Below are positions 3 through 9,826 of a stretch of 64,000 bases of DNA, one piece after another; position 1 is the first letter of the stretch; each line of letters starts with the position of its first letter. Under the pieces are notes generated by a model. It saw only the letters and a list, made by a program, of their open reading frames with translations. It was not told the DNA's origin and ran no database searches. Both the position numbers and the translations under genes were made by a program. The DNA is from Candidatus Terraquivivens ruidianensis. GTDB lineage: Archaea > Thermoproteota > Nitrososphaeria_A > Caldarchaeales > Wolframiiraptoraceae. Where the stretch lies: positions 165,053 through 229,052 of the forward strand of contig JALNLA010000002.1 of the NCBI GenBank assembly GCA_023267975.1, in the 5' to 3' direction.

Positions 3-842
3 AATGAACCGGTTTACTATGGTGCAGATAGCGTGATTTACGTGGATGATGAGGATCTGGCTACGTATTATCCAAATGTTTACGGTGACGTCCTAGTTAA
101 CCTTGTCAAGAAATACAAGCCCGAACTCCTCCTCATAGCTGGAACGCTTAGTGGTAGAGAGATGGCACCATACGTTGCTAACTGTCTGAGGACGGGTATC
201 ACGGCTGACTGTACGGATTTTGACGTAGATGAAACAACAATGGACGTACTCCAGATAAGACCACCGTTTGGTGCAACCTTGCTCGCATACATAAGGACGC
301 CACACAATAGGCCACAAATTGCAACGGTTAGACCAAACGTCTTCAATTTACCAAATAAGGACGTTTCTAGAAAAACCAGCTCAGTAATCAGGGAACATGT
401 TGAGATACCGAGGCCGAACGTCCGTCTGCTTAGCTCGGAAAAAGTCGAGAAGGAGGCTGCTATAATAGAGAAAGCCGACGTCATAGTTTCTGGAGGAAAG
501 GGTTTAGGTTCTCCAGAAGGATTTAGATTATTGGAGGAACTTGCGCGTGAATTTGGCGGCGTCGTGGCAGGTTCTAGAAAAGCAGTTGATGCGGGCTGGA
601 TACCTCATGAGAAGCAGGTAGGCCAAACGGGTAAGAGCGTAAAAGCTTCCTTGTATATTGCCGTAGGTATATCTGGCGCTGCCCAGCATCTGTTCGGCAT
701 AAGGGAGGTAAAAACTGTCGTGGCGATAAACACGGACCCAGAAGCTCCAATATTCGACAACGCCGATTACGGGATAGTTGGTGACTATAGACAGATAATA
801 CCTGCAATAATAGAGGAGGTAAAGAGGCGAAGGCGTGGCTAG
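3..842 (+). CDS. etfA: Electron transfer flavoprotein alpha subunit (5' truncated)
   Basis: EtfA binds FAD and, with EtfB, passes electrons from dehydrogenases to a quinone or ferredoxin-linked acceptor. The reading frame is open to the window edge, and the codons before the internal GTG at 33 continue the protein, so the true N-terminus lies outside. The C-terminal FAD-binding domain is plain: GGKGLGSPEG, then AGSRKAVDAGWIP, QVGQTGKSVKASLYIAVGISG and the ending AINTDPEAPIFDNADYGIVGD, all typical of ETF alpha. EtfB is probably upstream outside the window. The stop overlaps the stop of the convergent FrhB-like gene on a shared CTAG. Confidence 0.95.
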   Translation, partial: NEPVYYGADSVIYVDDEDLATYYPNVYGDVLVNLVKKYKPELLLIAGTLSGREMAPYVANCLRTGITADCTDFDVDETTMDVLQIRPPFGATLLAYIRTPHNRPQIATVRPNVFNLPNKDVSRKTSSVIREHVEIPRPNVRLLSSEKVEKEAAIIEKADVIVSGGKGLGSPEGFRLLEELAREFGGVVAGSRKAVDAGWIPHEKQVGQTGKSVKASLYIAVGISGAAQHLFGIREVKTVVAINTDPEAPIFDNADYGIVGDYRQIIPAIIEEVKRRRRG

Positions 843-2206
843 CCAAACTTCCTTACGTATATGCCCTCCAGCTCAGACTCCTTCTCTAAAACCTTCTTAA
901 TCAAATTATGAAGTTTTCCTGCCTCTATTCGTAGAACGGTTGATGGTCTAGTGGGCACGTAATACCCTTCATGTTTAATCAGCCATCCTTTTTCACTAAG
1001 TCTCGTAAGAATCGTATCTAGCTCCGTTTCACCAATGTTGGCTGCCTTTGATAGCTCCGCGGCATTAGCCCCCCCTAACGTCAGCAGGACAAAGTACACG
1101 CGTATGTCCTCCGACGGTATACCAAGCTCAGAGAAGTACTGATACAGCAAATCGCTAACCTTCTCCCGCCTCTCGGCCTTCTTTTGTGCCTCTTTCATTA
1201 TAACATTTATAGCATTTCCACCTTCAACTATCCTTAGCTTTCCAGCTTTCACTAAGTCATCTAAGACCTCCATGGCTTTCTTAGACCTAACTATCGCCAT
1301 GCTCCAGTTAATGTCCGTGACACCAGCGTTACCGACGGATAAGTCTGCTAACCTTCCCGTGAAGTCCGTGCAAGAGGAACATGACGGCCAAGAGTATTTG
1401 CTGAGGTCCTTTACCTGTAAGCCTACTTGCTTATTTTCTTGGGTAAACACCGTGAACTTGCCCTTCCATATATCCAACTTTCTTATTTCGGATGGGTCAA
1501 TATTCAGCATCTTCTTCACAGTCTCTAAAAGAAGTCCCTCATAAGAGAAATTTCTGTGACAAAATAGCCCGATTATAAATTCGATCTTTCCATTCTCGAC
1601 CGGAACCATGGACTCCATCTGTAGCTTTCTTGCGGCTCTGACCTGGCATGGAAGGCCTACGACGGCAACTCTCTTAACCGTCGGGTCATCAATTACATTG
1701 CGGTACGCCCACATGCTTGGACACATAAAATACTTTGAGCCCGCTGCCTTCTTTATTTCCTCAGGAGTTCTAGCAAGGATAGGCTTCGGCATCCAATTTT
1801 TGTCTGCTGTCGTTAGAATGGCACCATCGATCAGCCCGGTCTCTAAAGCGTAAATCAGCAGCGTGGTTACCAAACCCCCGTTTTGTGCTATGGAGAGTAT
1901 ATTATCATCGGTGCTCTGCGCCAGTATGCATTTTTCATAATAACCCAAAGACTCTTCTTTGTTTGTCCCAATGAACAACTTCTTCTCAAATTCTTTCACG
2001 GGCGTATAAGTTTGGGGGCAGTACTTGTAACAGTTTCCGCACTCCGAACAATAATCTATAAGCCTTGGAGTTTTTCCATCCAACGTTATCCTAGGACATA
2101 CGCCCGCGCAGGTACCACAATAGCAGCAAAGCTGCCTCTCGATTACCCACCTATTTAAAAGCTCAAAGCTTGGAGTATAACTCAAGGCAGTGCTAGGTAC
2201 CATCAT
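839..2206 (-). CDS. FrhB-like Fe-S flavoprotein with C-terminal winged helix
   Basis: This resembles the beta subunit of coenzyme F420-reducing hydrogenase/dehydrogenase, which carries FAD and Fe-S clusters and moves electrons between F420 and partner proteins. The N-terminus has two ferredoxin-like motifs (CCYCGTCAGVCP, then CSECGNCYKYCP). The middle has FrhB features such as AQNGGLVTTLLIYALETG, VAVVGLPCQVRAARKL and LFCHRNFSYEG. About the last 85 residues look instead like a TrmB-type winged helix (FVLLTLGGANAAELSKAANI, then LTRLSEKGWLIKHEGYY), an unusual fusion. The frame opens at 2233, but a TATA-like box at 2240-2247 predicts a transcript start near 2217, so the adjacent ATGs at 2206/2203 are preferred. 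Its electron donor is not shown by the neighbours, though etfA is convergent next door. Confidence 0.8.
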   Translation of the reverse strand: MMVPSTALSYTPSFELLNRWVIERQLCCYCGTCAGVCPRITLDGKTPRLIDYCSECGNCYKYCPQTYTPVKEFEKKLFIGTNKEESLGYYEKCILAQSTDDNILSIAQNGGLVTTLLIYALETGLIDGAILTTADKNWMPKPILARTPEEIKKAAGSKYFMCPSMWAYRNVIDDPTVKRVAVVGLPCQVRAARKLQMESMVPVENGKIEFIIGLFCHRNFSYEGLLLETVKKMLNIDPSEIRKLDIWKGKFTVFTQENKQVGLQVKDLSKYSWPSCSSCTDFTGRLADLSVGNAGVTDINWSMAIVRSKKAMEVLDDLVKAGKLRIVEGGNAINVIMKEAQKKAERREKVSDLLYQYFSELGIPSEDIRVYFVLLTLGGANAAELSKAANIGETELDTILTRLSEKGWLIKHEGYYVPTRPSTVLRIEAGKLHNLIKKVLEKESELEGIYVRKFG

Positions 2207-2239
2207 TGCCACGTCAATAAAACTAAAAAACATCTCTTA

Positions 2240-2264: not shown

Positions 2265-2876
2265 CTAAGAAACTGCCCCCTCGTTACTTATACGCCTCTT
2301 AAGCTCGTCAACTGCATCCCTCAAACCCATCAGGGTCTTAAAAAACTCCTCAAAGTCCATATGGTAATTTGACCCGTCTATATCGGTTTTCTCCGATATT
2401 TCAATTTGAGCGGGCCTCGCGGCCTCCAATTTTTCACACGATTCCTCTTTGGATTCATCAGTCATCCCAACTTCCTTCATTGAGCTCTCTACCCCTTTCA
2501 CGGTCTCTTCGGACTTATCTATGCTCTTTTCATAGCTGGCGGTACCTTTCCCTTCCTCCCCCTTCAGCTGAAGGGGTTGTTGCAACGGTGGACGTTGAGA
2601 GGGCTCAGGCCTTGGTCCTGTTTTTAATGGTTGGGATGGTTGCGCGACATGAACCGTCACGTTGCCAGCACCCTCTGGGATTTGATGGTATGAATGGCCA
2701 TGAGCGGCAGCGTATCCAGCTGGACTGTCCATACGTTCGGTTGGGATGCCCCCCGAAGTGTGGGTAACTGCTTTAGGTACTCTAATTTTTTTGTAAAGCA
2801 GGGCTACGCCTACATAAAATAATGCCAAGAAGATCAAGATTATGAGCATCAAATCAATGTCGGACAGACTATGCAA
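2265..2876 (-). CDS. Membrane-anchored coiled-coil protein, ArlX-like candidate
   Basis: Unrecognised by sequence. One transmembrane helix lies near residues 9-28 (LMLIILIFLALFYVGVALLY), followed by a basic stop-transfer KK. Then comes a long low-complexity Pro/Gln/Glu/Ser-rich linker, and a C-terminal segment (about 170-200) with helical heptad character (FFKTLMGLRDAVDELKRRI). The start is a TTG directly abutting the arlJ stop, with a later ATG-encoded Met at residue 10 as alternative. Being the last gene of the archaellum operon suggests a motor accessory role. In Crenarchaeota, ArlX has the same plan of one TM plus a coiled coil that forms a ring round the motor. No homology is claimed. 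Confidence 0.6.
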   Translation of the reverse strand: MHSLSDIDLMLIILIFLALFYVGVALLYKKIRVPKAVTHTSGGIPTERMDSPAGYAAAHGHSYHQIPEGAGNVTVHVAQPSQPLKTGPRPEPSQRPPLQQPLQLKGEEGKGTASYEKSIDKSEETVKGVESSMKEVGMTDESKEESCEKLEAARPAQIEISEKTDIDGSNYHMDFEEFFKTLMGLRDAVDELKRRISNEGAVS

Positions 2877-4418
2877 CTAACCCACCTCAACAAGACCGCT
2901 TAATTCTTCAACATTTAGCATCATACGAAAGAGTAACTCGACCGAAAGCGATACTACCAAGAAGGAGGCTGCAGAGATTGCCATTAACAGACCAAGGTAC
3001 ATGAGGAGCGTAAAGGGAGATTCTCCTTCAACGAAGTATATGGCGAGGCTACTGCCGACGGTAACAGCGAGTGTCACCGAGAAGAAGTATATGTTCACTA
3101 TATGTTCGGATGGAATCTGTATGAGGGAGATGTATGGTGAGACCATTTGCATAAACTTTCTAAAGATCCCGGTGAGGGACTTGATGAGTGCAAGCACGCT
3201 GCTTAGCGTTGCCTGTAACGGTATAACCGTACCCTTCAGGTTGCCAGCAATTTGGGCACGCTTATTCCTTCTTATAAGGACCGAAGTCGTGTAGTCACCC
3301 AACACCTTACCGTAGACGCTCGCCTTAGCACCAGATCTTATACACTCTCCCAATATGAAAGAGCATGAAGAAATCATCCTGCTACCGCTCTCAAGACCAA
3401 AGATGTATAAGCATATGTCCGTGCTAAACCCAGCCTTGAGTCTGTTCACCAGTTTCTTTATAAGCCCTGTAAGCTTCCCGTAATCATTCAGCGCTACCGT
3501 TTTTAATGCTGGTTTAAGGGAACTTGTTACAGATAAAGAATCGGCGAGGGCTTTAACGAAGGATAAAAATACAGTATCCATCTCTTTCACGCTAGATACG
3601 ACCCTTCTACCAACCAATCCAACGAGAGCTGGAGCGACGGAGCCTAGAAATAATGGCAGGGGTACAGGATAAAGTGCAGATATTGGAGCGGATATAACGA
3701 AATATGTGGACAGCAAACCCATGATAACGGTCACTGAAATGCTTCCGATAAGAGTAGGCGGTATTAGCTTCTCAACTTTCGCTATGTGGTTAGGCCTCTC
3801 CTTTAGGGAGTGAAGGACGGGGGATTTTGGCGAGCTCTTGTAAATTAAGAAAATAATGCAGACTAGCGTTGCTACCATCATTGTGGCCGATGTTATTAGA
3901 ATCTGTTCAGGTTTTACACCACCGTATATCATCGAAGTCAGGAGCATCGAAACTGATAAGAATGCGAATGAAGTCAAGAGTGCTGAGTATGTCTCGGAAA
4001 ATCTTCTGAGCCTATCCATGCATCTGTCAAATTCTGCCTCAGAAGTTGACATAAATCTCTCGAATTCGATCTTGGCAAAGTCCGACATACTGGCTCCGAC
4101 CTTAAGCGTTTGGCCCATCCTAAGTAGCGTACCCTTAATCTTCTTATCTCGTATGTTTTCTAAGACAGCAGAATAGGCATCATGAAGTCCGTAAGACCAC
4201 CTCTCGGTTAACGACTTTATTCTCTGAAATACTGTAACCAATGGACCTACTATGTTCGTTGCTGAAGCCATTCTACCGATGATTACTTTAGTATTTAGGT
4301 TGGACATAGAAAGGCAAGTCAACAGGAGCAGCATCATAGGGTAAAATTCGCTCGTGCCATTCATCTTACCGTGAAAACTATTTTTAATGGACCTATAGAA
4401 GCTCCCTAAGATTTCCAA
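2877..4418 (-). CDS. arlJ: Archaellum membrane platform protein ArlJ (FlaJ)
   Basis: ArlJ is the polytopic membrane core of the archaellum motor, on which the ArlI ATPase acts. The 513-residue protein has the GspF/T2SF-like layout: a cytoplasmic N-terminal helical domain, TM segments near 145-190 and 220-260, a second cytoplasmic helical domain and C-terminal TMs near 440-505. The start is TTG at 4418, overlapping the arlI stop by 13 bases. A strong Shine-Dalgarno (GGGAGGT) lies about 10 bases upstream, inside the end of arlI, which favours this start and implies translational coupling. Confidence 0.93.
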   Translation of the reverse strand: MEILGSFYRSIKNSFHGKMNGTSEFYPMMLLLLTCLSMSNLNTKVIIGRMASATNIVGPLVTVFQRIKSLTERWSYGLHDAYSAVLENIRDKKIKGTLLRMGQTLKVGASMSDFAKIEFERFMSTSEAEFDRCMDRLRRFSETYSALLTSFAFLSVSMLLTSMIYGGVKPEQILITSATMMVATLVCIIFLIYKSSPKSPVLHSLKERPNHIAKVEKLIPPTLIGSISVTVIMGLLSTYFVISAPISALYPVPLPLFLGSVAPALVGLVGRRVVSSVKEMDTVFLSFVKALADSLSVTSSLKPALKTVALNDYGKLTGLIKKLVNRLKAGFSTDICLYIFGLESGSRMISSCSFILGECIRSGAKASVYGKVLGDYTTSVLIRRNKRAQIAGNLKGTVIPLQATLSSVLALIKSLTGIFRKFMQMVSPYISLIQIPSEHIVNIYFFSVTLAVTVGSSLAIYFVEGESPFTLLMYLGLLMAISAASFLVVSLSVELLFRMMLNVEELSGLVEVG

Positions 4419-6121
4419 ATTTCCTTACCTCCCAAAACCATGCTCAATGCCTCCCCCGTCCCAACCCTCCATGCGACCTTTATCGCCCTCCAAACGTCAA
4501 AGTAGTCCAAAACGCCCCTCTCCGCCAAACCTTTAAGAAAGACCGCCCTCGTCTCGAGCTCCCTATAGATCTCCCTGACCCTTCTTCTGGGTATGCCGCG
4601 CATAACGGCAACTTTGTTCTCCAATAGATGACTGCTCCCCTCGCCCCTAAAGACGAAAGTGTCGCTTATCGGGTCCCAGCTGAACAGCTCTATGAAGTCG
4701 AACCGGTCTTCAACGGAATCATAGCCAACTATCTCGTTAACGCTAAGGACTCTCCTCTCAAGCGTACCAGTGGAGGGTAGCCTGACGGCGCTCTGAATCA
4801 CCGCGCAATTCAGTATGTCTATGTAGCTCTTCGGTATATCTATCGGTGTTCCAGTGAGACGTTGTATCAGTTTCTGTACGGAGCCAGCGTGGAACGTCGT
4901 CACGACTGGTGCTCCTACCTGCATCGCTTGGAAAGCGACATACGCTTCCTTGCCCCTTATTTCCCCGACAATTATGTAGTTGGGTCTCTGTCTCAGTGAC
5001 GCTTTTAATAGGTCAAACAGTTCTATGCTGCTTTCAACATCCTCCCCTTGTTTCGTCACTTCACGAACCCAGTTGTCGTGCGGAACGACTATCTCGGGTG
5101 TATCCTCTATCGATATTATCTTAGCCTCAGGTCTTATGAACACGCAAGCGGCTCTTAAAAGTGTGGTTTTACCGGAAGCAGTCTCACCGCAGAACCAAAC
5201 ACTCAATCCGTTCTCCAGCATAAGCCACAAGTAAGCTGATGTTATCGCATCTATCGTGCCCCACTTTATGAGTTGAGTGATGCTTATTGGTATATCGGCA
5301 AATTTTCTGATGGTAAAGTTTGACCCGCGCATGCTGATATCGTTGCCGAAGACTATGTTTATCCTAGAACCATCAGGCAGAGCACCATCGATTATTGGTC
5401 TCCTGTAAGTGACAGGTCTCATAGTCCTTTCTGATAGAGAAATGACAAATTCATCTAGCTGATCTTCGCTCTCGAAGGTCACGCTCGTTTCGCAGCTGCC
5501 GAATATTTTATGCTCGACGAATATGGGCCCTACACCATCACATGATATGTCTTCAATGTACGGGTCCCTTATGAAGGGCTCGATTAAGCCCAATCTTACT
5601 TTGTGAAGGATCAGCTGGTATCTGAGGACCGAAAAGGTTTCATCGTTCACCTTTATCTTAACTGGTATTCCGGATTTCTTCAAAACCTTGTAGTTCCATG
5701 TTGGAAGACTCCTGTCCACACTTATGAGAGTATCAAGCTTTGACAGCAAAATCCTTTCTTTTTCAGAATCGCTATCCCCAACTTCCTCATCACTTATTAA
5801 TATCGCGAGGGCTTTATCGACATCCTTCAATAGTTCGCCGAACTCCTTCGGTACAGTCGGCTCGACAACCTGATAGTAAATCCTCTCACCTTTAGCCCGC
5901 TCGTAAACATGAATGAATATCGGATCACCGACGGGATAAAGTACGTTAATGTTCTCCATGTACCTCATGTCTCTTGAAAGCTGCACATGATATGCCGGTT
6001 GGGTAAGTCCTTTACTACGTAGATTTGCCAAGTACTTTACCAGATGGGGATTTGCCTTAATGGCATCTGTAAGACTCTTGCCCAATTGTTTTCCATGCTG
6101 CTCGTAAGCCATCATGCTCAT
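4406..6121 (-). CDS. arlI: Archaellum motor/assembly ATPase ArlI (FlaI)
   Basis: ArlI is the secretion-family ATPase that powers archaellin assembly and rotation. The Walker A motif GETASGKTT is at residues 312-320. It is followed by IISIEDTPEIV, the HDNW segment and the IIVGEIRGKEA Asp/Walker B box, with the His box TTFHAGS after it, all as in the GspE/VirB11 class. The length of 571 residues is normal to slightly long, with the N-terminal regulatory domain present. The start ATG overlaps the arlH stop as ATGA. It lies between arlH and arlJ, the standard archaellum order. Confidence 0.96.
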   Translation of the reverse strand: MSMMAYEQHGKQLGKSLTDAIKANPHLVKYLANLRSKGLTQPAYHVQLSRDMRYMENINVLYPVGDPIFIHVYERAKGERIYYQVVEPTVPKEFGELLKDVDKALAILISDEEVGDSDSEKERILLSKLDTLISVDRSLPTWNYKVLKKSGIPVKIKVNDETFSVLRYQLILHKVRLGLIEPFIRDPYIEDISCDGVGPIFVEHKIFGSCETSVTFESEDQLDEFVISLSERTMRPVTYRRPIIDGALPDGSRINIVFGNDISMRGSNFTIRKFADIPISITQLIKWGTIDAITSAYLWLMLENGLSVWFCGETASGKTTLLRAACVFIRPEAKIISIEDTPEIVVPHDNWVREVTKQGEDVESSIELFDLLKASLRQRPNYIIVGEIRGKEAYVAFQAMQVGAPVVTTFHAGSVQKLIQRLTGTPIDIPKSYIDILNCAVIQSAVRLPSTGTLERRVLSVNEIVGYDSVEDRFDFIELFSWDPISDTFVFRGEGSSHLLENKVAVMRGIPRRRVREIYRELETRAVFLKGLAERGVLDYFDVWRAIKVAWRVGTGEALSMVLGGKEIWKS

Positions 6122-6846
6122 GCCCTCGCTTGGGAGAACGGTAGTACCTTGATGCCAAAGGTCGTATCTACATCAAAACTCAGGATGACTGATGTGGATT
6201 TAATTGCGCCCTTAATTTTCGGAGCCTGCAATATTCTGACCATCCTATCGCCTATTTCCTTTATCGAAAGCAGGAAATGTACATCGCATATCGAACGGAT
6301 CCTCAGCATCATTTCTTGAGTGAAGGCATGCGTGTGAATCGTGACGATAAGAACTTTAGAACTCTCTTCTACTAAGTTCCTTACATCCGTGAAAAAGCTC
6401 AGTATGTCCTCCTCTGATGCATAAGTTGCTATATAGGTGAGCGAGTCCACAACGTAAACGTCAAAAGTTGGATTATTTTTGATTAGATTTATGATTAGGT
6501 CCAAGAACCTTTTTGCCAGATCACTTTGCCAATTGAGCTCCTTTACGTGGAGCTCAGCTATTTTTAAGTCGCCATTAAAGAAGTAATACTTAACATCAAA
6601 CGAAAGATCCTGCATGTTTCTGAGTAGCTGCCTGTAGCCGCTCTCTGTGGTAACGTAGTAGGCTCTGAGACCGCTTTGTAAAGCTCCATAAACATACTGC
6701 TGAGATATTACGCTCTTGCCAGAGTCGTTAGGTCCCTCAATGAGAAGAATAGATGGTATCTTTATTGAACCTATTTTCCTATCCAGCTCTGTGTTATAAG
6801 ATGTGAATTCTTTTTTGGATAAACTTTCTGTAAACTTACCGCTCAA
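6118..6846 (-). CDS. arlH: Archaellum ATP-binding protein ArlH (FlaH)
   Basis: ArlH is a RecA/KaiC-fold protein that binds ATP, usually with little hydrolysis, and sits on ArlI inside the ArlX or ArlC/D/E ring. Walker A is GPNDSGKS at residues 38-45. A Walker B-like strand (VYVVDSLTYIA) follows near residue 130, and the TIHTHAF segment corresponds to the sensor region. It ends in an ATGA overlap with arlI and starts 2 bases after arlF, so it is cotranscribed. Confidence 0.95.
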   Translation of the reverse strand: MSGKFTESLSKKEFTSYNTELDRKIGSIKIPSILLIEGPNDSGKSVISQQYVYGALQSGLRAYYVTTESGYRQLLRNMQDLSFDVKYYFFNGDLKIAELHVKELNWQSDLAKRFLDLIINLIKNNPTFDVYVVDSLTYIATYASEEDILSFFTDVRNLVEESSKVLIVTIHTHAFTQEMMLRIRSICDVHFLLSIKEIGDRMVRILQAPKIKGAIKSTSVILSFDVDTTFGIKVLPFSQARA

Positions 6847-6848
6847 CT

Positions 6849-7409
6849 CTAAAACCCTCCATCCGTTGTGGATGCACCGTTTGGTGCCACGACTATTATG
6901 TTGATGGGGTACGTCAGATTAAGTGCGTGTTCCCTATCCAAATTAACCATGATGACTAGTTCTTCGGAGGGGTCCCACTTGCCCTTTGAAGTATAAGGTA
7001 GGTTTATCGGATTCAGCGCCTCGCCCATCACACCGTTTGTCAAGACTGACACGACTCGCCATCCTTCCTTTCCAATTGATAATTGGTCAAAGGGTACTCT
7101 TACGACAGTTGGGTATGTGTAATTCTCTAATGTTCCGACGACGAATATTTCCATCCTGTCAAAGTGGGCAACTGGTATGGAGTAAGAACCTACGTTCTTA
7201 ATTTCGAGGTGAATCGTTGTGCCGCTTTGGGGAGTTATACCGAGTATTCTTAGGACTGTTCTTTCTAACGAGATGCTGTACCTGAGGGCTTCTACTCCTT
7301 CATTATATGTTCTAATTCCTGCCTGTATTATGTAGGATCCTTGAGCAAGAACCAACATAATCATTACTGCCATGATGCCTGCAGTAATTAACGTCCCAAA
7401 GCTACTCAT
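6849..7409 (-). CDS. arlF: Archaellum stator protein ArlF (FlaF)
   Basis: ArlF has an N-terminal archaellin-like helix (MSSFGTLITAGIMAVMIMLV) that anchors it in the membrane, and a beta-sandwich domain outside. In other archaea ArlF holds the motor to the S-layer. The typical strand-turn LEIKNVGSYSIPV and a late GKWDPSEELVIMV strand are visible, along with N-glycosylation sequons NYT and NLT. The KWDPSE motif near residues 144-149 is shared with ArlG. F versus G assignment rests mainly on gene order (G then F then H), since both are short and similar. Confidence 0.82.
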   Translation of the reverse strand: MSSFGTLITAGIMAVMIMLVLAQGSYIIQAGIRTYNEGVEALRYSISLERTVLRILGITPQSGTTIHLEIKNVGSYSIPVAHFDRMEIFVVGTLENYTYPTVVRVPFDQLSIGKEGWRVVSVLTNGVMGEALNPINLPYTSKGKWDPSEELVIMVNLDREHALNLTYPINIIVVAPNGASTTDGGF

Positions 7410-7419
7410 GAAACCACCT

Positions 7420-7908
7420 CTATATGGAAAATGTGAAGTCCGAGTACTGACCTGTGTAGATAGTGAATCTGAGAAAGTAATCCCCGCTCTGCAAGCTAGT
7501 CGGCCAATCTATTGTTATTTCGATTGTCTCACTAGGGTCCCATCTACCATCCCCGTCAGCATCATTTACAAACTCATATTGCCACTTCGGTGGACTTGGT
7601 TCTTTGTATGGTATACGTCGGAAAGAGCCCTTAGGACCAAAAAAGAGGTCCGATAGTTCTATCAGTTCTGAGGGTATGTCCTCCTGGCCGACGTTCTTCA
7701 ACCAAGCTTTGATTGTCGTGCTGCTAACTGGAGCGGCGAAGACTATCTTCACTTCAATCTTCAGTTCACGCCCTATCCGGCCAAGCATGAATTTGTTTGC
7801 ATCCGATATTTCATAGAAGCTAGCTATGAAAGTAGTTGAAAACACTGAAGCTGCGATAATCGCAGCAACCATTATTATTGCCTCACCAATAAATGTGGTC
7901 GAGACCAT
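7420..7908 (-). CDS. arlG: Archaellum stator protein ArlG (FlaG)
   Basis: ArlG is the second pseudo-archaellin of the motor. In other archaea it forms filaments capped by ArlF. An N-terminal hydrophobic helix (residues about 6-30) is followed by a beta-sandwich containing KAWLKNVGQEDIPSELIEL, the conserved FlaG/FlaF strand. Residues 116-127 (DADGDGRWDPSE) match the 12-residue EF-hand calcium loop at positions 1, 3, 5, 9 and 12, which is not a feature I know from ArlG. The gene lies 10 bases ahead of arlF and 6 bases behind arlD/E. Confidence 0.82.
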   Translation of the reverse strand: MVSTTFIGEAIIMVAAIIAASVFSTTFIASFYEISDANKFMLGRIGRELKIEVKIVFAAPVSSTTIKAWLKNVGQEDIPSELIELSDLFFGPKGSFRRIPYKEPSPPKWQYEFVNDADGDGRWDPSETIEITIDWPTSLQSGDYFLRFTIYTGQYSDFTFSI

Positions 7909-7914
7909 ACCCTT

Positions 7915-8601
7915 TCATTCCCTCGCCGATAATGCGTTATCAGAATCATACTGGAGTTTATTGACAACGAGTAATAGAAGCATAAAGAGCGGGTCATCAT
8001 CCCCTTCTGCCAACCTATTCAGAAGATATGCGGCTATCAAGCCATCTTCGATGGTAGGCGCTTTTTGAAAATTTGAGTCTCGTACATCGTTCTCAAACCT
8101 ATTGAGCATCTCTAAAGACTCTATTATCTGAATGATCGTGCCAGATGGTATTAGCGCTCTCCAAAACGTGGAGCTGAGCATACTTAGCAGGCGCTCACGT
8201 CCTATGAGCCTTACCATCAAGCTTGTAAGCGCCAACACGTTCAGAAATTTCATCACGCCTCCGATGTGGCGCTCTGTTGATGCATGTGCTTGTGGCGTCG
8301 CTTCTATTGTATGCTCCGCTGGAGGTGACTGTTGACGGGGTTTTTGCTCGGGTTTAGTAACTCCCTCATCAGGTTTTAACTCTCTTACGGGAAACGTGCC
8401 GATGAGCTTAGTGACATACTCAAACGGATTCTCCAACTCGTTTATCAATCCCCTGATGTCCATCAAAGTCTTTTCTAGAGGTTCCTTCATCTTCTGGACT
8501 TCTTCCTCCAGCATTCTGATTCTTCTTTCGATATCAATCTCGTGCTTCTTATCCACCGACAACTTACATCCCTTCTCATATCTTCCTAATCGCGTACTCA
8601 C
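7915..8601 (-). CDS. arlD: Archaellum protein ArlD/E-type (FlaD/FlaE domain)
   Basis: This is a cytoplasmic ring/adaptor protein that in Euryarchaeota and Thaumarchaeota replaces crenarchaeal ArlX around the motor and connects to taxis. The N-terminal coiled coil (residues about 22-56) leads to ELENPFEYVTKLI, a short Pro/Gln linker, and a C-terminal FlaD/E-type helical domain (TSLMVRLIGRERLLSML...IPSGTIIQIIESL). The start is GTG at 8601, inside the end of the V4R gene (26-base overlap). No nearby in-frame alternative looks better. No separate arlC or arlE exists here, so this gene may serve for all three. Confidence 0.75.
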   Translation of the reverse strand: MSTRLGRYEKGCKLSVDKKHEIDIERRIRMLEEEVQKMKEPLEKTLMDIRGLINELENPFEYVTKLIGTFPVRELKPDEGVTKPEQKPRQQSPPAEHTIEATPQAHASTERHIGGVMKFLNVLALTSLMVRLIGRERLLSMLSSTFWRALIPSGTIIQIIESLEMLNRFENDVRDSNFQKAPTIEDGLIAAYLLNRLAEGDDDPLFMLLLLVVNKLQYDSDNALSARE

Positions 8602-9115
8602 AGGACTCTTTGTTCTTCAACTGACACTCGCTTTCGATGATGCGCATTCCGTCCTCCAGAAATTTTTCGAATATTGATTTCAACATACCGCACATGAAAT
8701 TACAGAAAAGCGAGCTTTCGCTTTCGTCTTCGTCGTAATGCTCTTGTTCCAAAAGCATGGATAAAACAAGGTTGCTACTAACACGAACACGGTATTCCTT
8801 AACGTTAGCGTCTGGAGTCTCTGACTCGAAAAACCAGAACCTCTCAACATAGTTATTTTCAATTAAAATCTCCGAGAGTTCTTTAAAAATTACGTGAAGG
8901 TCCAATCTGTTTTCAATATTGGTCGGATTAACTTTCTGCATAAGTAGCCCCGCGATGTTGCACCCCTCAGCCATTCCAAGCCTGAAGAATATCGCGTTAC
9001 ATGCCGAGTTGCCAAACAACCTCGCGATTATGCTGCTTATATAAAGCAGGGCGCGCCATTCCAAAACTTCTCTAAAACCGAAATTGTTGCTTTTTTGTGT
9101 CATTAATCCGTTCAC
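8576..9115 (-). CDS. V4R-domain protein, first gene of the archaellum operon
   Basis: The C-terminal third has the signature of the V4R (4-vinyl reductase) small-ligand domain: FCNFMCGMLKSIFEKFLEDG, then ESECQLKNKESCEYAI, with cysteines at 138, 142, 164 and 172. V4R domains occur in BchJ and in regulators, where they bind small hydrophobic or heme-like ligands, or metals via Cys. The remaining sequence fits one complete V4R fold and no DNA-binding domain is seen. It leads the operon, 9 bases downstream of its predicted transcription start. It overlaps arlD/E by 26 bases, so a sensory or regulatory role in motility is inferred. V4R plus arl is not a standard pairing. Confidence 0.68.
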   Translation of the reverse strand: MNGLMTQKSNNFGFREVLEWRALLYISSIIARLFGNSACNAIFFRLGMAEGCNIAGLLMQKVNPTNIENRLDLHVIFKELSEILIENNYVERFWFFESETPDANVKEYRVRVSSNLVLSMLLEQEHYDEDESESSLFCNFMCGMLKSIFEKFLEDGMRIIESECQLKNKESCEYAIRKI

Positions 9116-9220
9116 CTTTAATCTGATTTATGCATTATCAAAATAATATTTAAGTTTTCTGGAAATTCCGTAAAATTTAAATAAAGGTAATGTTATAATA
9201 AGACTGAAGTAAATGAAGTG
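9116..9220 (+). promoter_or_regulatory. Divergent promoters between archaellum operon and archaellin gene
   Basis: A plus-strand TATA box (TTTAAATA, 9176-9183) predicts a start near 9206, just ahead of arlB. A minus-strand box reading CTTAAATATT at about 9147-9156 predicts a start near 9124, 9 bases before the V4R gene. The two promoters lie back to back in about 100 AT-rich bases, so one regulator could control filament and motor together. No clear operator palindrome is visible. Confidence 0.6.
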
Positions 9221-9826
9221 ATGAACATGAAAAATACTTTAGTATTAAAAAAACGTATGCGAAACAGGGGGTTGACAGGATTGGAGACTGCCATCATCTT
9301 AATTGCCTTCGTAGTGGTCGCCGCAGCTTTCGCGTTTGCCGTGCTGAACCTTGGCTTCACGACGACTCAAAAGAGCTCTGAGGTCATAAGAGCAGGTCTT
9401 AGCGAGGCCACCTCTGCGATAGAGCTGAGCGGCGGAGTCATAGCAATGTCTAATGATTCAAACGGCGTTCGGTACGTGGCCAACGTAACGATGTTCATCA
9501 AAACCGGCCCTGGAAAGGAGCCTATAGATATGAGCGACAAAACACTCACAGTAAGTTACATGGACCCATACGTTCATGTCGCACGGTTAACTGAAGGCAC
9601 TAATTTGTTAGTTAATGAAGTAAGGGGTGACGGCGATAGTTTGTTAGAGTATGGTGAAACATGGCAGATAACCGTCGAAATAGACAAAATTTACGGCAAT
9701 CTGACGGATGTTAAGATTGGGGCAAACGATAAGTTCGTTATAGAGATAAAGCCTGCGGTCGGTGCTATGCTGACTGTCGAGCGCATACTTCCGCCATCGA
9801 TAGATCCGCTAATGAACCTAGGATAG
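9221..9826 (+). CDS. arlB: Archaellin (major archaellum filament protein)
   Basis: The class III signal peptide has a basic stretch (KKRMRNRG) followed by the hydrophobic assembly helix LTGLETAIILIAFVVVAAAF; the prepilin peptidase should cut after the Gly. The mature part is a beta-sandwich with sequons NDS, NVT and NLT, likely sites for AglB glycosylation. A loop near residues 136-147 (RGDGDSLLEYGE, counted from a GTG at 9218) partly matches an EF-hand loop, paralleling ArlG. ATG at 9221 or 9227 is a better start than that GTG. Only one archaellin gene is present, transcribed away from the motor operon. Confidence 0.93.
   Translation: MNMKNTLVLKKRMRNRGLTGLETAIILIAFVVVAAAFAFAVLNLGFTTTQKSSEVIRAGLSEATSAIELSGGVIAMSNDSNGVRYVANVTMFIKTGPGKEPIDMSDKTLTVSYMDPYVHVARLTEGTNLLVNEVRGDGDSLLEYGETWQITVEIDKIYGNLTDVKIGANDKFVIEIKPAVGAMLTVERILPPSIDPLMNLG

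Follow-up and report, generated by a model that had tools for sequence, protein, structure and literature searches.

Single-domain archaeal V4R proteins of family PF02830 are represented by MJ1460 (PDB 2osd), and paired glycines in helices 2 and 5 are a hallmark of the V4R/Bet3 fold (PMC2253512). Relatives of the V4R/TRAPPC3 type are described as dimers whose cavities bind hydrophobic ligands. In Thor-TRAPPC3, much as in PoxR, zinc is coordinated by four cysteines, and in mouse TRAPPC3 the zinc site is replaced by a hydrogen bond (PMC10933270). Because of this replacement in the mouse protein, the zinc on V4R cysteines in solved relatives appears to be structural rather than sensing. In MsvR, a V4R redox regulator of methanogens, the exchange C206A alters redox-dependent DNA binding (PMC3729527). 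Archaeal groups differ in the cytoplasmic portion of their archaellum motor. In other archaea, CheF is docked on ArlCDE and connects CheY with the motor (PMC9126983), and the thaumarchaeal counterpart of ArlX/ArlCDE is described in the excerpted text as unidentified (PMC8978795). For the hot-spring archaea of the order Caldarchaeales, to which the genus Terraquivivens belongs within the family Wolframiiraptoraceae (PMC9246946), FlaB, G, H, I, J and K are named without a V4R protein in the excerpts of one study (PMC10547907), and those of the Wolframiiraptoraceae paper mention neither archaellum nor flagellum nor motility (PMC9246946). Among the matches listed in a search of the open-licence literature, no earlier tie of V4R or 4-vinyl reductase to the archaellum was found.

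In the window, that is the whole 64-kb stretch of DNA analysed here, which belongs to a Candidatus Terraquivivens genome of 1.3 Mb in 8 contigs, the open frame at 8576-9115 (-) represents a V4R-family gene of 179 aa, the product of which will be referred to as Arl-V4R. The gene opens a same-strand run that continues with an arlD/E-like gene, two arlF/G-type genes, arlH, arlI, arlJ and one further gene, with arlB divergent, in agreement with an earlier sequence-only reading that had placed V4R at the head of the motor operon. The features are as follows:

2265-2876, minus strand: last gene of the run, fast-evolving, with an N-terminal hydrophobic stretch; no family match
2877-4418, minus strand: arlJ, membrane platform protein (NF004705, 4.5e-70, below cut-off)
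4406-6121, minus strand: arlI, motor ATPase (NF058587, 652.9 bits, over cut-off)
6118-6846, minus strand: arlH (NF004723 over cut-off; NF052589 1.8e-51, below cut-off)
6849-7409, minus strand: second arlF/arlG-type protein (PF01917 slightly below cut-off)
7420-7908, minus strand: arlF/arlG-type stator protein (PF01917 over cut-off; NCBIfam ArlG and ArlF below cut-off)
7915-8601, minus strand: arlD/E-like protein (phmmer chain to PF04659; actual start probably around 8562 or 8556)
8576-9103, minus strand: V4R-fold protein at the head of the arl operon (start at ATG 9103, 175 aa; open frame listed from GTG 9115)
8585-8704, minus strand: C-terminal V4R core, the span of the Pfam match (invariant C134 region, C160, C168)
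9104-9217, no strand: region between the divergent genes; two TATA-like boxes read by eye, one per direction
9218-9826, plus strand: arlB, archaellin, divergent (PF01917, 104.9 bits, over cut-off)

Translation of the V4R gene probably starts at ATG 9103, yielding 175 aa, since this codon is preceded by GGTGA and since the ATG, the GGTGA site and a TATA-like box are conserved in three species; the listed GTG sits inside the presumed ribosome-binding site. The sequence-only reading had expected PF02830 to match the C-terminal region, and the match was indeed found there (residues 138-177 only, the last 40 residues), though with 22.8 bits it remained below the cut-off of 31. At E values up to 1, PF02830 was matched by 6 of 12 family members. 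As the Pfam match alone is insufficient, the assignment of a full-length domain was based on profile-profile comparison. Profile A1, built from five sequences of Terraquivivens and genus g10, matched canonical V4R proteins in hhalign with Prob 96.8 (E 2.8e-10, 132 columns), profile A2 (seven sequences of other genera of Wolframiiraptoraceae) did so with Prob 95.7, and A1 and A2 matched each other with Prob 96.5. All controls stayed at or below 1.1: the reversed profile scored 1.1 and 0.2, none of 20 column shuffles exceeded 0.5, and five unrelated archaellum families reached no more than 0.3. These findings support the presence of one V4R (TRAPPC3/Bet3-type) domain over the full length and uphold the earlier description of a single-domain V4R protein. 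Of the helix glycines, G43 and G139 are present in 12/12 members and G47 in 10/12; the window protein carries the helix 2 pair G43 and G47 and half of the helix 5 pair (G139, with S at 143). No helix-turn-helix family matched the window protein or its family members, and Arl-V4R is, as judged from its profile matches, a single V4R domain without a recognisable DNA-binding or catalytic part. An AlphaFold model made from two sequences (the window protein and that of locus L087) had a pLDDT of 38.2. Profile searches of solved structures with A1 and with the family profile A5 matched no V4R structure, in contrast to a canonical V4R protein encoded in this genome, which matched MJ1460 (E 6.6e-4). 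Two other V4R proteins of this genome exceed the Pfam cut-off (L015, 9974-10795 (-); L016, 8468-9934 (+)), one of which is possibly fused to an ACT-like N-terminus.

No direct family match was obtained in the window for the arlD/E-like protein, and no member of set A6 matched Arch_fla_DE; the label was assigned through a chain, two of the window protein's phmmer matches being over the PF04659 cut-off. The 26-base overlap of V4R and arlD/E noted by the sequence-only reading arises because arlD/E is listed as the longest open frame, with its start at 8601. The arlD/E frame of G003 does not open until past the V4R stop, and comparison of the junctions suggests that arlD/E starts some 15-20 nt past the V4R stop. 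Judged from these junctions, the overlap is a product of start choice, the 8601 start being doubtful. At the other end of the run, the 2265-2876 (-) protein directly after arlJ shows 33-50% identity within the genus and no family matches, and represents a candidate membrane or ArlX-like part. The gene at 839-2233 (-), adjoining the archaellum cluster, is kept in the genus and represents an unusual fusion of enzyme and regulator: its FrhB/FdhB-type product contains ferredoxin motifs and, at the C-terminus, matches a TrmB-type helix-turn-helix (1.7e-10).

A search of genome contigs yielded one relative of the V4R protein, in Candidatus Terraquivivens tengchongensis, and the viral contigs searched contained none. 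Archaellum loci of Caldarchaeales were collected from 29 genomes with an arlJ match and from G011 (n = 30); the head was missing or cut off in six (G002, G009, G014, G022, G031 and G040), leaving 24 that could be judged. A V4R-family gene was found at the head of 14 of these 24 clusters: in 12/12 in Wolframiiraptoraceae (one decayed), in 2/5 in family f4 and, clearly, in none of seven in family f2. Across Wolframiiraptoraceae the divergent arrangement of arlB and V4R recurs as well. In the order-wide search with profile A5, the 14 best matches (E 1.1e-29 or better), 12 of which had built the profile, were all linked to arl genes, and the next match followed at 6.7e-11. G011, which is outside the building set, was found by A5 and carries V4R directly before arlD/E, arlB and the V4R start lying on a second contig end. 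Open frames in the slot of two f2 genomes (G036, L058; G042, L071) were weak candidates and were counted as negative: their hhalign Prob ranged from 2 to 56 against two wider V4R profiles and was at most 3.3 against A2, with shuffles reaching 4.2. A second archaellum-like cluster of G033 (L060, 3,768 bases) was left out of the count. No V4R gene accompanies the archaellum clusters of the Caldarchaeales genera g8, g12, g6 and g9, so that the gene is not indispensable for an archaellum. The pairing is not unique to the window and, with 14 of 24 visible-head clusters, exceeds chance. V4R is thus genuinely tied to the archaellum, in a conserved and lineage-specific manner, one protein family filling the slot in two families of the order.

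Co-occurrence and decay further connected the gene with the organelle. Within Wolframiiraptoraceae, V4R was present in 11/14 arlJ-positive compared to 1/8 arlJ-negative genomes (Fisher p 0.006, kinship ignored), and in the single arlJ-negative carrier, G011, the short contig bearing V4R contains arl genes as well. In G001, a Terraquivivens relative and sister species, the whole archaellum cluster is decayed (L012, 11426-17087): the V4R match contains one stop and extends no further than residue 121, and arlI retains residues 3-173 of 571, with the flanking genes FrhB, uL2, uS19 and hisS free of stops. Thus, the link to the archaellum claimed from the window sequence was borne out by recurrence at the cluster head and by joint decay. 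In another genome, G029 (L013), arlB, arlI and arlJ show frame breaks and the V4R frame is open, reflecting either decay or assembly error. Between species, V4R was 65-70% identical, arlD/E 67-76%, the stators 63-78%, and arlH and arlI 85-91%; the evolutionary rate of V4R hence resembles that of arlD/E, F and G, not that of arlH and arlI. Its dN/dS was 0.17-0.44 by the YN method, dS being close to saturated for some comparisons.

The 12 members in the tree described below could stem from one insertion event, so that the gene might be a neutral hitch-hiker that a common ancestor acquired next to the cluster and that plays no part in motility. We consider this extremely improbable, as the gene is under purifying selection, has been retained down to about 15-25% identity across two families, and is lost or decayed together with the cluster, and as G029 shows no match to the outer flanking genes of the window. 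Since the tie to the archaellum is conserved and lineage-specific, PF02830 does reach the C-terminal region and the pairing recurs beyond the window, a role of the V4R protein in motility is likely.

Outside Caldarchaeales, adjacency was judged from the arl loci, using 76 archaellum loci (16 plus 60 hand-picked among the stronger arlJ matches listed, spread over families). At least one of the 76, many of which are cut by contig ends, has an adjacent V4R gene: in G098, of a distant family, a canonical-type V4R over the Pfam cut-off lies divergently beside arlB (L084, 13348-13866 (+)). V4R genes in L118 and L123 lie ~9 kb beyond arlJ and 2.2 kb upstream of arlB, respectively, without arl adjacency, and were not counted. 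In a tree of 26 rows, which omits the short G007 and the decayed G001 sequence, the 12 intact Caldarchaeales genes included grouped together, separately from the canonical V4Rs (support 98/97), and the G098 protein was placed with the canonical V4Rs on a long branch. On this placement, G098 apparently represents an independent recruitment.

Arl-V4R resembles the single-domain proteins of PF02830 in its length (~170 aa), its full-domain profile match and its helix glycines and, in Terraquivivens and g10, in three C-terminal cysteines, but differs in falling below the Pfam cut-off, in its separate tree group, in its fixed archaellum context and in a cysteine motif that is broken in eight relatives. 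TRAPPC3/Bet3 and Thor-TRAPPC3 belong to the same superfamily, a relation drawn through V4R; unlike these vesicle-tethering proteins, Arl-V4R is encoded in an archaellum operon.

The sequence-only reading had counted four cysteines and proposed cysteine-dependent binding of metal or heme. The window protein in fact has six cysteines, of which C134, C160 and C168 (numbered from ATG 9103) are invariant in 5/5 sequences, from three Terraquivivens species and two g10 genomes. Their spacing of 26 and 8 is identical to that of MsvR C206/C232/C240 (PMC3729527). A redox or metal sensor that switches motility through these cysteines would fit this pattern and the effect of the MsvR C206A exchange mentioned above. 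However, in the same slot of the other genera of Wolframiiraptoraceae, C134 and C160 are missing in 8/8 and C168 in 6/8 sequences (L050 has gaps at two positions), so that the function of the slot does not require the cysteines, and the zinc on V4R cysteines of solved relatives appears structural (PMC10933270). Hence, support for the proposed binding is confined to Terraquivivens and g10 with their MsvR-like spacing and does not extend to the eight sequences of other genera. Cysteine sensing as a shared function of Arl-V4R is unlikely from this comparison, and we regard a switch of this kind as unlikely overall. In these other genera, a replacement of the metal site as in mouse TRAPPC3 seems to have happened; loss of the zinc-cysteine site would be common to this protein and the Arl-V4R family (PMC10933270), which shows V4R proteins losing a presumed metal site yet holding their place. 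As the metal-binding cysteines are dispensable, Arl-V4R is more likely a motor accessory than a metal or heme sensor.

The position of the gene at the head of the operon is equally compatible with a regulator of expression. Alone or with a partner regulator, Arl-V4R might control how arlB and its own operon are transcribed from the promoter region between these divergent units: the gene lies divergently next to arlB across the family, the intergenic region is alignable in three species, transcription factors such as MsvR occur among other V4R proteins of archaea (PMC3729527), and the best NCBIfam match is MsvR itself (NF053755, V4R part only, 24.7 bits versus a cut-off of 220). Nevertheless, the V4R domain fills all 175 residues and no helix-turn-helix family was matched, and the intergenic region shows promoter-like boxes only, no operator motif being established. 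Besides the absence of a DNA-binding domain, Arl-V4R is unlike MsvR in not occurring in methanogens and in cysteines that are not conserved in the family. We therefore consider a regulatory role rather doubtful.

The order of genes, with V4R between arlB and arlD/E, its rate as for arlD/E, F and G, the dispensable metal site and the thaumarchaeal scaffold described as not yet identified (PMC8978795) might also be explained by a subunit that occupies the place of ArlC in Euryarchaeota and serves solely as structural scaffold, without ligand sensing. For a core scaffold, however, the lack of V4R in other clusters of the order would be unexpected, and FlaC_arch (PF05377) was absent among the 11 families matched by 12 members at E values up to 1, which makes this explanation quite unlikely.

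We assign about an even chance to Arl-V4R being a dedicated cytoplasmic accessory or adaptor of the Caldarchaeales archaellum that acts with ArlD/E and ArlH. Its gene immediately precedes that of the arlD/E-like protein and is present and decays with the archaellum cluster; as a small protein of the V4R fold, an old fold of sensors and adaptors, and tied to arlD/E across a lineage, it represents a concrete candidate for a missing motor part or regulator. As an accessory, Arl-V4R may act on the ArlD/E-ArlH layer, either as stabiliser or as direct ligand input, with a partner and a ligand that we infer. The cysteines would probably hold a structural metal in Terraquivivens and g10, and other packing would replace this metal elsewhere.

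In this role, Arl-V4R may take the place used by CheF and CheY in other archaea. The euryarchaeal CheF/ArlCDE switch layer is the proposed place of action and Arl-V4R adjoins arlD/E in the operon, but no sequence relation to this layer was found. Among 44 Caldarchaeales genomes, CheF was detected in none, MCP in two and CheW in one. A chemotaxis-independent input, in which a ligand-binding dimer of the V4R/TRAPPC3 fold sits in the cytoplasmic ring beside ArlD/E and directly sets motor output or assembly, is conceivable, though we hold it to be rather improbable. Since chemotaxis genes coexist with Arl-V4R in g10, the protein is not simply a replacement for them. Chemoreceptor genes of the order are confined to this genus (G029 and G033; L160-L163), CheW being present only in G033.
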